Below, one piece after another: positions 34,901 to 38,880 of a DNA stretch of 64,000 nt (position 1 is its first letter; every line of letters starts with the position of its first letter). Both the position numbers and the translations under genes were made by a program. The stretch lies in NCBI RefSeq assembly GCF_900114495.1, contig NZ_FOZI01000001.1, positions 1,321,469 to 1,385,468 on the forward strand. Direction: 5' to 3'. The notes under the pieces are model-generated. The model made no database searches. It was given only the letters and a program-made list of their open reading frames with translations, and was not told the DNA's origin. The DNA is from Dyella sp. OK004 (lineage in GTDB: Bacteria; Pseudomonadota; Gammaproteobacteria; Xanthomonadales; Rhodanobacteraceae).

Positions 34901-35084
34901 GGATGTAGAGCATATCGTTGGAAGCCTACGTTTCGCACGACTTGGTTTGATGGCGACAACGCCCCATGGAATGTTTGCTTTCGCGCCGAGGGTCGGCTAA
35001 GTAAAGCCGGATTACGCCCCCCCGATCCGCGCCGAACGGTTCCACAGGGATGGGAGCGCGTTCCACTGGATTCGGGAGTGTTCC

Positions 35085-36281
35085 ATGCAACGACGCGACT
35101 TTCTGCGCCAAGCCGGCGCAACGCTGGCCGTAGCCTCTACCGCGGGTCTGGCCGCCTGTGCGACGCAGCCGACGACCGCAACCAGGACCGCTTCTACGCC
35201 GCCGCCGATCCGCATGCTCCCGGACGGCGTCGAGCTCGCGCCGGTCAAGGCGAGCGTGGACCGGATCACCGGCGTATATGTCTGCACTCGCCCATTCCGC
35301 GCGGCCGGGCCGCGCATCGAGATGGAGCGCCTTGGCAACAAGGCCGTCGTGCACAACTACGGGCATGGTGGCAGCGGTTGGTCGCTGTCGTGGGGTTCGA
35401 GCACGCTCGCGTTGCGTCTCGCGCAGAGCACCGGCGTGCGCGAGCTAGGCGTGATCGGCTGCGGGGCGCTGGGACTCACCTCGGCCTTGCTGGCGCAGCG
35501 CGCGGGATTGTCGGTGCGCATTTATGCGAAGGAACTGCCGCCGGATGTGTACTCCATGCGCGCGTCCGGACTGTGGACGCCCGACTCGCGCATCTGCGAC
35601 GCCGCGCATGCCGACGCGCTCGGCGCGCGCTGGGAAGAAATGACGCGCATCTCCTTTGCGAAATACCAGAGCCTACTGGGACTGCCGGGCAAGCCGATCG
35701 AATGGATAGAAGGCTATTACCTGTCCGACACGCCGCCCGGCCAATCGAGCAGCGAACCAGCCGACGAACCGGAATACGGTGAGCTCTACGACCGCGTGCG
35801 TGACCTGACCCCGCGCTCGGTCACCTTGCCGGCCGGCAGTCATCCTTTCCCACAGGCCTATACGCGCCGCTACACCACATTGATGTTCAACATCAGCAGC
35901 TACGCACGCATGCTGATGAGCGACTTCCTCGCAGCCGGCGGCAAGATCGAAGTGCGCGAGTTCGAGCATCCGCGCGAACTGCAGAAATTACCCGAACACA
36001 CACTGATCAACGCTACCGGTTATGGCGCCAGGGCCTTGTTCAATGACGACTCGATCATCCCGGTGCGCGGTCAGACCGCACGACTGATCCCGCAGCCGGA
36101 AGTGACCTACGGCCTGAGCATGCACGGCCTCAGCATGGTGCCGCGCAGCGACGGCCTGCTGGTGCAAGTTATCGGCGATACCGGCAATTTCAACAATAGC
36201 GACGTCACGCCCAACCGCACAGCATCGGAAGCGGCGGTAAAGCAGCTGGCCGACCTGGTGGCGCACATGCGGCGCGGGTGA
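35085..36281 (+). CDS. Tat-exported D-amino-acid-oxidase-like FAD protein with permuted domain order
   Basis: A 398-residue flavoprotein. MQRRDFLRQAGATL is a twin-arginine signal and LAAC (residue 25) looks like a lipobox. Residues 63-104 contain TRPFR, PRIEMER and VVHNYGHGGSGWSLSWG. In D-amino-acid oxidases that block is the C-terminal signature, after the active-site arginine strand. Here it comes before the FAD-binding Rossmann motif LGVIGCGALGLTSALLAQRA (121-140). The chain then runs through the usual middle part to LINATGYGARALF (308-319), PVRGQTARL (326-334) and PRSDGLLVQVIGDTG (353-367), and stops where the moved block would normally follow. This looks like a circular permutation. It probably oxidises a D-amino acid or another amine in the periplasm. 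It has no partner gene in an operon. Confidence 0.85.
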   Translation: MQRRDFLRQAGATLAVASTAGLAACATQPTTATRTASTPPPIRMLPDGVELAPVKASVDRITGVYVCTRPFRAAGPRIEMERLGNKAVVHNYGHGGSGWSLSWGSSTLALRLAQSTGVRELGVIGCGALGLTSALLAQRAGLSVRIYAKELPPDVYSMRASGLWTPDSRICDAAHADALGARWEEMTRISFAKYQSLLGLPGKPIEWIEGYYLSDTPPGQSSSEPADEPEYGELYDRVRDLTPRSVTLPAGSHPFPQAYTRRYTTLMFNISSYARMLMSDFLAAGGKIEVREFEHPRELQKLPEHTLINATGYGARALFNDDSIIPVRGQTARLIPQPEVTYGLSMHGLSMVPRSDGLLVQVIGDTGNFNNSDVTPNRTASEAAVKQLADLVAHMRRG

Positions 36282-36894: not shown

Positions 36895-38880
36895 TTATTT
36901 CACTTCGTCATACACATACTCATGTTGGCCATCGCGCATCACTAGCTGGCGCTTGGCCGGCGTGCCGGCGACCACGAATTCGAAGCCATCCACACCCGGC
37001 GAGATAGTCACGAATGAGATCGAGCCGTCGTCGTTCTTGCGCGAAGCCACATCGCTGCCCCAGGCGCCGAAGTTGAACAGGGTCGTCGCGCCGTTCTTAT
37101 CGATCTGGATCGTGCCCAGCGCCGTGTTCTGATAACGCCCGGCCAATCTGGACGCTTCACCGGCATCGGCCGGCACGACCAGGCGCTTGCGCTCGGCCAC
37201 GATCTGCTGCTTGAGCCGCTTCATGCCCGCATCGATATCACCCTGAGCCAGCGGCTTGCCGTCGAACAGCACCTCCAGCAGACGCCGCTGGAACGGACCG
37301 CGAATGAAAACGCCGGAGTCCGCGTTGGTGAGGATCACCGCGCCCACGCCCTGCTCGGGTAGCCACAACATGTCGGAGTGGAAGCCGGTGAGGTCGCCGC
37401 CGTGATGTACCACCGGCACACCCCAGGTGTGATCCACCATCAAGCCCATGCCATAGCTGGCGGTGGTGCCCAGCGCGACATTCGGTTTGCGCCGCTCCAG
37501 CAAGGCGCCCTTCGATACATAGCGCTTGCCGTCGGGCAAGGAGCCTTCGTCGAGTTCCATCTGCACGTAGCGCAGCATGTCGCTGATCGCGCTCCATGCT
37601 GCGCCGGCCGGACGCGCGGCGCGAATGGAATCGTTGATGCCCATGCCCGCGACCGCGGTATGGCCATCTACATCCAGGCCATGCGGCGTGGCGTGATCGC
37701 CGGCCAGGGCCTTCGCATAGTCGAAGGTGGTCAGATGCATGCCGAGCGGGTCGAACACCTGCTTCTGCATCGCCAGGTCGTAGCCGGCACCTGGCTCCAT
37801 TTTCGGATACAGCGAGTAGGCGCCCACATAACCCGCAGCGGCGGCCATCAGATTGGAATACTGGAACAGCTGGCCGAACTTGCTGGTGGGTTGCATGCCG
37901 GCCAGCGCCGTGAGCACCGATGCCGGTGTCGCATCCTTGCTGTTGAGCAACCACTCCATATCCTGGCGCGGCATGCCGGTGCAGGCGCAGATCAGATGAC
38001 GTATCTCAACCTGGCGGGTCGTCGCGGCATCGCCCAGGCGGAAGCCGGGCATCACCTTGCTGACCGGCGTGCTCCAGTCGAACCGGTGCTGGTCCACCAG
38101 ACGCGCCAGCATCAGCGTGGTCAGTGCCTTGGTATTGGAGGCGATCATGAAAAGCGTGTCGGCGTCGACCGGCTCGGGCTTGCCCAGCTCGCGCACGCCG
38201 AAACCGCCGGCGAACACTACCTTGCCGTGATCGATCAAGCCGATGGCTACGCCCGGTACGTCATAGGCTTTGCGTGCGTTGTCGACGAAGGTCTGGAGCG
38301 TTTCGACGCGCGCGGCGTCCAGCGAGTGCGCTTTCTTGCCGGCAAAGGTTTCGCGCTGATAGCCCTTGGGTAACAGACGGTCGGAGATCGCGCGCAATTG
38401 AGAAGCGCGTTTTTCGCCCACCGCGTTATCGACGTCGTAGATCAGCACGGTGTACTGGCCTTCGTGCCGTAGAGCGATGGCGGTAACGCCGCGCTTGTCG
38501 TTGGCCGAAGTCTCGTAGCTGTACACCCGGATCTGGTCCCAGTTGTCGCGTGGCGAACTGTCGGTGGCGACATGCAGTGGCCATGTCTTGGGCGATGCAT
38601 AGGCCTTCCATGCTTCGGCCACGGCAGCATCCGCGTCGGTAGCTTTCACATCCACTAGTACGACATGCGAACCGGACTCCGGTGGATCGAGCAACACCGC
38701 GGCGCCCTGGGTGCGTACCGACCACTCGGCGGGGACCGTGAACTGCGTGCCTGCGGGCGTCGTTCGCGGCGCGTCCGCTTTGACGACGATGGGCGGTGGG
38801 CTAGTCGATTGATCCTTGGCCCACACCGGTGCGGACAAGGGGAGAAGAAGAACCACAACAGCAACGCATCGCCTCAGCAT
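36895..38880 (-). CDS. Exported serine hydrolase, class C beta-lactamase/penicillin-binding fold
   Basis: A 661-residue protein. A signal peptide ends at PVWAK (about residue 22). An N-terminal domain of about 170 residues (30-190) without a named family precedes the beta-lactamase fold (about 195-540). The fold has the catalytic SxxK in FMIASNTKALTTL (about residue 247), the YSN motif in LFQYSNLMAAAAG (about 340) and HHGG in VVHHGGDLTGFHS (about 490) in place of KTG. These are the marks of esterase or D-aminopeptidase-type members rather than true AmpC. A C-terminal beta domain (about 570-661, with LAGRYQNTALGTIQI) resembles that of related peptidases. It would act in the periplasm on an ester or peptide. 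The gene stands alone. Confidence 0.88.
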   Translation of the reverse strand: MLRRCVAVVVLLLPLSAPVWAKDQSTSPPPIVVKADAPRTTPAGTQFTVPAEWSVRTQGAAVLLDPPESGSHVVLVDVKATDADAAVAEAWKAYASPKTWPLHVATDSSPRDNWDQIRVYSYETSANDKRGVTAIALRHEGQYTVLIYDVDNAVGEKRASQLRAISDRLLPKGYQRETFAGKKAHSLDAARVETLQTFVDNARKAYDVPGVAIGLIDHGKVVFAGGFGVRELGKPEPVDADTLFMIASNTKALTTLMLARLVDQHRFDWSTPVSKVMPGFRLGDAATTRQVEIRHLICACTGMPRQDMEWLLNSKDATPASVLTALAGMQPTSKFGQLFQYSNLMAAAAGYVGAYSLYPKMEPGAGYDLAMQKQVFDPLGMHLTTFDYAKALAGDHATPHGLDVDGHTAVAGMGINDSIRAARPAGAAWSAISDMLRYVQMELDEGSLPDGKRYVSKGALLERRKPNVALGTTASYGMGLMVDHTWGVPVVHHGGDLTGFHSDMLWLPEQGVGAVILTNADSGVFIRGPFQRRLLEVLFDGKPLAQGDIDAGMKRLKQQIVAERKRLVVPADAGEASRLAGRYQNTALGTIQIDKNGATTLFNFGAWGSDVASRKNDDGSISFVTISPGVDGFEFVVAGTPAKRQLVMRDGQHEYVYDEVK

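Follow-up and report, generated by a model that had tools for sequence, protein, structure and literature searches.

D-amino-acid oxidase (DAAO) is among the best studied flavoenzymes and is in industrial use. Its N- and C-termini lie close together in the structure, and it has relatives in glycine oxidase ThiO and D-amino-acid dehydrogenase DadA, which belong to the same superfamily of FAD amine oxidoreductases as the protein described here. DAAO and D-aspartate oxidase (which we take to be EC 1.4.3.3 and 1.4.3.1, respectively) are the best matches, both by sequence and by Foldseek, to P0001, a protein of 398 amino acids encoded at 35085..36281 (+ strand) of the window, the 64,000-nucleotide stretch of Dyella sp. 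OK004 DNA that was analysed. The DAAO and D-aspartate oxidase family (PF01266) has the FAD Rossmann motif, the RPxR arginine and HNYGHGG in common with P0001. However, P0001 differs from this family in that its segments are swapped, it carries a twin-arginine/lipobox leader, the active-site Tyr is lost and an insert bearing Gln is gained. Because the protein has neither the canonical segment order nor the active-site Tyr, we do not class it with the D-amino-acid oxidases. One published account gives GxRPxR and YGHGGxG as the signatures of bacterial DAAOs (PMC9844085); P0001 has YGHGGSG, and CxRPxR in place of GxRPxR.

The nearest canonical-order relatives that we found (L018, L020, L075-L079, L137 and L138) have these motifs in common with P0001. 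Canonical-order relatives come from Tsukamurella, Streptomyces, Streptantibioticus, Nocardia, Mycobacterium, Vibrio and Burkholderia, and are annotated, where an annotation is given, as FAD-dependent oxidoreductases. Such bacterial DAAO-like proteins place the Rossmann motif first and the block of RPxR and HNYGHGG last, and have no lipobox pattern (0/10), whereas the order in P0001 is reversed. P0001 is a member of neither ThiO (TIGR02352, 18.3 bits against a cut-off of 250.8) nor DadA (NF001933, 10.9 bits against 383), and four permuted proteins scanned reached no NCBIfam cut-off among the matches listed. Eight proteins that we take to be ThiO-like, read from ten loci among 32 genomes without the permuted gene, have the canonical order and no HNYGHGG. 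Against Pfam DAO (PF01266), P0001 scored 77.2 bits (cut-off 27.9), its best stretch placing residues 123-392 on positions 4-297 of 353; a second stretch, whose position was not displayed, passed E<=1. As the canonical-order relative L018 covers positions 2-353 in one stretch, linear family profiles evidently fit permuted genes poorly.

The original prediction put an RPxR...HNYGHGG block ahead of the Rossmann motif at residues 121-140, and this order is true, with the block taking in residues of about 52-117. The open reading frame holds all motifs at the places noted: TRPFR at residues 68-72, PRIEMER at 76-82, VVHNYGHGGSGWSLSWG at 88-104, the FAD Rossmann motif LGVIGCGALGLTSALLAQRA at 121-140, PVRGQ at 326-330 and PRSDGLLVQVIGDTG at 353-367. 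Six bases 5' of its ATG the sequence reads GGGAG (35074..35078, + strand), which we take to be Shine-Dalgarno-like, and the gene, read in its exact reverse-strand frame, runs into stops. Matches to a canonical profile delimit a relocated C-terminal segment with RPxR, HNYGHGG and the C-terminal helix (residues 52-117; 35238..35435, + strand), followed by a segment running from the FAD Rossmann domain to the new C-terminal helix (residues 118-398; 36278 being its last base and 35436 its first, + strand).

This profile, of 318 positions, was built from eight DAAO-like canonical-order proteins (L018, L020, L021 and L075-L079). P0001 matched it in two swapped pieces, positions 5-258 on residues 121-396 (89.9 bits) and positions 253-315 on residues 51-115 (50.9 bits), which jointly span nearly the whole profile with each segment matched once. 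The C-terminal stretch at residues 321-398 matched only positions 182-258, and the new chain ends fall at position ~255. Swapped two-piece matches were obtained for 28/28 permuted proteins tested, namely P0001, three of its 12 orthologues (L001, L004 and L009), five named relatives and 19 phylum-sample loci.

Additionally, every rotation of each protein was scored against the canonical profile with the leader removed. A cut just before the Rossmann motif was best and gave a single near-full-length match in 26 of the 28 permuted proteins; for P0001, 90.5 bits became 150.2, and the scores form a plateau over cuts at residues 113-122. The two proteins that did not merge into one match on rotation, L016 and L052, each carry additional residues at the C-terminus. 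When the signal peptide was kept, 11/12 permuted proteins showed no gain because the leader splits the match; the one that gained was L051, which had been read without a leader. When the eight canonical proteins were rotated in steps of three, the best score came at rotation zero for seven and at rotation three for L078.

PDB sequences of DAAO and D-aspartate oxidase gave a similar picture. Unrotated P0001 matched them in two stretches of swapped order (for 7ct4, query 66-114 on chain 325-373 and query 118-338 on chain 23-246), and after rotation 11 of 17 distinct chains, such as 7ct4, 6rkf and 1an9, were matched in one stretch that included the block. Among the other six, four still gave two stretches, 1c0i stopped short of the block and 9vpf matched in the block region only. 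Whole-protein scores barely changed on rotation (7ct4 from 54.1 to 59.3 bits, 1an9 from 48.8 to 49.4), rising for 7ct4 and 1c0i and falling for 8hy5 and 9vpf; the score of the unrotated protein is already a sum over the two pieces, which accounts for this. Among the best stretches listed, no PDB chain at E<=0.001 matched the permuted profile A2 full-length in one stretch.

Counting distinct proteins that have the block, we arrived at 53 permuted and 10 canonical ones, none undecided and none with two blocks. The original prediction had read the gene as permuted, had proposed a search for homologues keeping the block-first order and had named a second GHGG-type block at the C-terminus as evidence against permutation. 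Such homologues exist (the 53 distinct permuted proteins), a second block was looked for and is absent, with one block each in 28/28 permuted proteins, and the two-piece matches and rotations uphold the permuted reading. P0001 is almost certainly a genuine, clean circular permutant of the DAAO fold. In its sequence, what were the final ~65 residues in the canonical chain now come first, with the old C-terminal helix running straight into the old first Rossmann strand.

Structure prediction was of limited confidence. An AlphaFold model of the full protein with 13 similar sequences had a pLDDT of 42.8 and was set aside, and one of the mature part (347 residues), with 15 sequences including two more distant permuted proteins, had a pLDDT of 57.5 and a pTM of 0.61. 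Most of the substrate half of the latter model is of low confidence; it is confident at native residues of about 72-151, where blocks of ten score 65-97, and again at about 272-321 (76-94), and the first of these parts, leading from the block to the Rossmann domain, is modelled as hairpin, helix, strand and helix in unbroken order. Foldseek with this low-confidence model returned 32 matches at E<=0.001; 28 bear the name DAAO or D-aspartate oxidase, and the remaining four (4qfd, 4qfc) are presumably human DAAO. Their TM scores of 0.32-0.47 are modest, as would be expected when a permuted and partly unresolved model is aligned sequentially. The matches support the predicted DAAO fold, not the place where the block packs.

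The fusion junction, where the old C-terminal helix meets the old N-terminal Rossmann strand, lies at residues 113-122 (35421..35450, + strand), as placed by the rotation plateau and by the spacing from the His of HNYGHGG to the Rossmann motif. Of the 28 permuted proteins, 22 have a spacing of 33 residues, five have 37 and the last has 32. In the ten canonical proteins, where the start of L020 and L021 was set by rule and not by annotation, the tail after the His and the head before the Rossmann motif sum to 30-63 residues (30-37 in six). Judged by these spacings, the old ends appear to be joined with little or no linker, as an in-frame head-to-tail fusion would give. The same order could have had another history, in which a mobile segment brought the block to its present place, by relocation or acquisition, and no tandem duplication, fusion and trimming took place, and the lack of any two-block intermediate among the 53 permuted and 10 canonical distinct proteins is in keeping with that. 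However, the junction carries no clear extra sequence, and its 32-37 residues, set against the canonical sums, fit a whole-gene head-to-tail fusion; we consider a mobile segment unlikely.

For a tree, sequences were rotated to canonical order (27 permuted, 10 canonical and 3 ThiO-like); a narrow motif pattern removed L051 and L074 from both the tree and the residue counts, and L081 was brought in. The maximum-likelihood tree divides the permuted proteins into clade I (L016, L017, L052, L061 and L081), clade II (L053-L060) and clade III, which contains P0001. Support is 98/93 for the 10 canonical proteins and 100/100 for the 3 ThiO-like, in a tree where the branch of L021 is very long and several rows are of odd composition. 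The branch that holds all 27 permuted proteins on one side has weak support of 75/58, and these proteins stayed together in 74% of 200 bootstrap trees, which lends some weight to the idea of two origins of the permuted order, one for clade I, which is mostly non-exported, and another for the remaining clades. That idea is nevertheless improbable, given that the maximum-likelihood tree does gather all permuted proteins on one side of a branch and that the first profile piece ends near position 250-258 in most proteins of all clades (the match stops at 194-203 in six of the 28). A single origin of the permuted order is favoured.

Residues 1-25 of P0001 (35085..35159, + strand) comprise a twin-arginine signal, RRDFLR, and a lipobox, LAAC, ending in Cys25, and are followed by a variable linker (residues 26-51; 35160..35237, + strand) that is gapped and little conserved in the alignment. 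Across 13 aligned Rhodanobacteraceae sequences R3, R4, F6, L7, R8, L22 and C25 are invariant, and the leader reads RR.FLR, then L, A/T/V, A or G, and Cys. A looser twin-arginine and lipobox pattern matched 45/53 distinct permuted proteins, with at least one match (L049) spurious on reading. The Kozakia protein (L015) and L061 have the RR and lack the lipobox, the clade I-type proteins L016, L017, L052, L074 and L081 have neither (L074 being put with clade I by similarity), and the N-terminus of L051 is cut by an upstream stop. P0001 is very likely a Tat-exported lipoprotein, as judged from this leader. The twin-arginine/lipoprotein-like signal of the original prediction is thereby borne out, since an RR motif followed by a lipobox was found by pattern match in all 12 Rhodanobacteraceae orthologues. 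The same prediction had joined permutation and export signal in a single scenario, and here the two components stand separately: the permuted order predates P0001 and is more widespread, and 5/6 clade I-type proteins show no export signal, so rearrangement and export need not have been one event.

The residues expected to hold the cofactor and substrate are largely retained. The GxGxxG glycines G125, G127 and G130 are present in 37/37 aligned proteins and HNYGHGG is nearly invariant. Arg69 (35289..35291, + strand), which we take to be the equivalent of R283 in pig DAAO, is likewise Arg in 37/37 canonical and permuted proteins, and the neighbouring Pro70 is found in 27/27 permuted and 8/10 canonical. 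The pocket has changed in two respects. At the place of the active-site Tyr, presumably Tyr228 of the pig enzyme and Tyr238 of the yeast enzyme, P0001 has Ser350 (36132..36134, + strand), an assignment made in the alignment and also when aligned with the yeast chain 1c0i. Tyr occupies this position in 0/14 clade III proteins (one, L045, has Phe) and in 13/13 of clades I and II, and the canonical proteins have Tyr or Phe in 10/10; a GG pair that commonly follows the Tyr in the other aligned proteins is absent from 14/14 clade III proteins as aligned. Additionally, clade III has an invariant residue of its own in a short insert, Gln361 (36165..36167, + strand), which is Gln in 14/14 members and a gap in 23/23 other proteins.

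The loss of both the Tyr and the GG pair throughout clade III would suit proteins that are catalytically dead and serve as periplasmic binding or scaffold lipoproteins. Against this, the FAD-motif glycines are invariant, as is the Arg, which at the equivalent place is reported to bind the substrate carboxylate (PMC9844085). The same paper describes enzymes classed as DAAOs in which the active-site Tyr is replaced by Met, Phe, Ala or Cys (PMC9844085), and because the residue varies among DAAOs, its loss in clade III hints at a different substrate and not at inactivity. We regard lost catalysis as quite unlikely, and P0001 as likely to be an active oxidoreductase, probably working like an FAD-dependent amine oxidoreductase. 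Since the pocket appears re-tooled, with Tyr lost and Gln361 gained, ordinary free D-amino acids are probably not what the enzyme acts on. A carboxylate-bearing amine is slightly more likely than not as the substrate, and an electron acceptor other than O2 has a little less than an even chance.

Our homologue search was centred on one phylum, with other phyla reached through a plasmid collection only. Dyella, Frateuria and Rhodanobacter have twelve orthologues, which are 72-78% identical in the best segment. Matches were found in 28/147 genomes of the window's own family, own genome included (20 of the 28 matches were fetched, and all 20 are permuted), and in 20/398 genomes of the Pseudomonadota phylum sample, where the match was to the permuted alignment, the own genome is again included and all 20 are permuted. 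The class sample gave 2/274, the own genome and one other (G175), whose gene, L021, has the canonical order. The plasmid collection contributed the named relatives, from Niveispirillum, Kozakia, Nonomuraea, Rhizobium, Mesorhizobium and Bradyrhizobium. On Mesorhizobium onobrychidis pOM4 (L019, 1735-2798) the permuted gene is spread over two frames that overlap, with the shift inside GxGxxG, and is a frameshift or a natural split; being in two frames, it was left out of the protein set. Chance or an artefact of assembly or annotation was rejected as an explanation of the block-first order, and is vanishingly improbable, because the same order recurs in conserved orthologues and altogether in 53 distinct proteins from many assemblies, and because residues 27-118 of P0001 score 55.4 bits against the canonical-order profile where the best of 1000 shuffles (725 of them reported) reached 5.7 bits.

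Three viral-contig loci also carry the permuted gene, two of them encoding an identical protein. On these IMG/VR contigs the gene lies at 1414-2454 of L080 and 2914-4011 of L081 and L082, and the adjoining open reading frames are, as we read their translations, presumably terminase-like, with a portal-like one too in L080. Given such neighbours, prophages or gene-transfer-agent-like clusters may be vehicles for the permuted gene. Among the titles and abstract openings listed in searches of open-access literature, a scope outside which most subscription journals lie, none describes a permuted DAAO. The permuted form looks like a real, bacterial, widely conserved and apparently undescribed branch of a known enzyme family.

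The neighbourhoods of permuted genes are not conserved, and thus no pathway can be assigned from them. In Kozakia the gene lies between a prolyl-oligopeptidase-like hydrolase and, directly downstream, a cytochrome c, in a cluster that also holds serine hydrolases, a canonical-order DAO and a TonB receptor. In L016, L017, L074 and the split L019 the permuted gene precedes a thiamine-diphosphate enzyme, which L052 and L061 did not show. On rhizobial plasmids an FAD-binding oxidoreductase, of the berberine-bridge type by Pfam in L017, also precedes the permuted gene. The regions concerned, 2470-6696 in L017, 2414-6741 in L074 and 3929-6682 in L016, could possibly encode a small pathway. Four genomes (L097, L101, L103 and L104) have the permuted gene 37-80 bases before one gene, which to us reads like hslU, and downstream genes in other loci read, as we take them, like hslU and a helicase; these look like housekeeping neighbours.

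A PF00144 hydrolase lies near the permuted gene in 6/37 loci (the window, L001, L003, L007, L012 and Kozakia), its identity coming from a Pfam scan in the window, L007 and L012. Three Dyella loci have such a hydrolase within 50 bases after the permuted gene. In the window itself a PF00144 serine hydrolase with a long N-terminal extension occupies 36895-38880 on the - strand, opposite to the permuted gene and behind another open reading frame. An association of this kind, with the D-peptidase idea attached to it, was tried and rejected: the own genome holds 17 PF00144 copies, and L001, L003 and L012 are all Dyella with the same layout. The serine hydrolase link is a weak lead. One more protein of the own genome matches the canonical profile nearly full-length, the DAO paralogue L140 (G000:C2:125857-126891), whose segments stand in normal order. 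Its neighbours, which we take to be a 4-hydroxyproline-epimerase-like and a pyridine-nucleotide-oxidoreductase-like open reading frame, suggest a D-hydroxyproline catabolic cluster.

The best explanation overall, and one that we hold to be probable, is that P0001 is a putative periplasmic, lipid-anchored, FAD-dependent amine or imino-acid oxidoreductase built on a permuted DAAO fold. The chain would fold in the cytoplasm around FAD, which would be the reason for the Tat pathway, and then be exported, lipid-modified on Cys25 and seated in the periplasm. There Arg69 would hold an amino- or imino-acid-like substrate by its carboxylate, a hydride would pass from C-alpha to N5 of FAD and the imine would then hydrolyse. 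Electrons would go on to O2 or to a respiratory carrier, for example the cytochrome c encoded beside the Kozakia relative.

More tentatively, one ancient permutation may have founded a separate bacterial lineage of the DAAO fold, whose exported branches would be lipid-anchored periplasmic dehydrogenases feeding the respiratory chain. They would draw electrons from unusual amino- or imino-acid substrates in a pocket that lost the DAAO tyrosine and gained a new glutamine. If this is true, it would be, to our knowledge and from our searches, the first natural circular permutant known in the DAAO flavoenzyme superfamily. A naturally rotated DAAO means that the fold tolerates chain ends away from the usual termini, and a permuted DAAO is a ready scaffold for fusions and sensors. 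The export signal and altered pocket of clade III point to an oxidation in the periplasm that is as yet uncharacterised.
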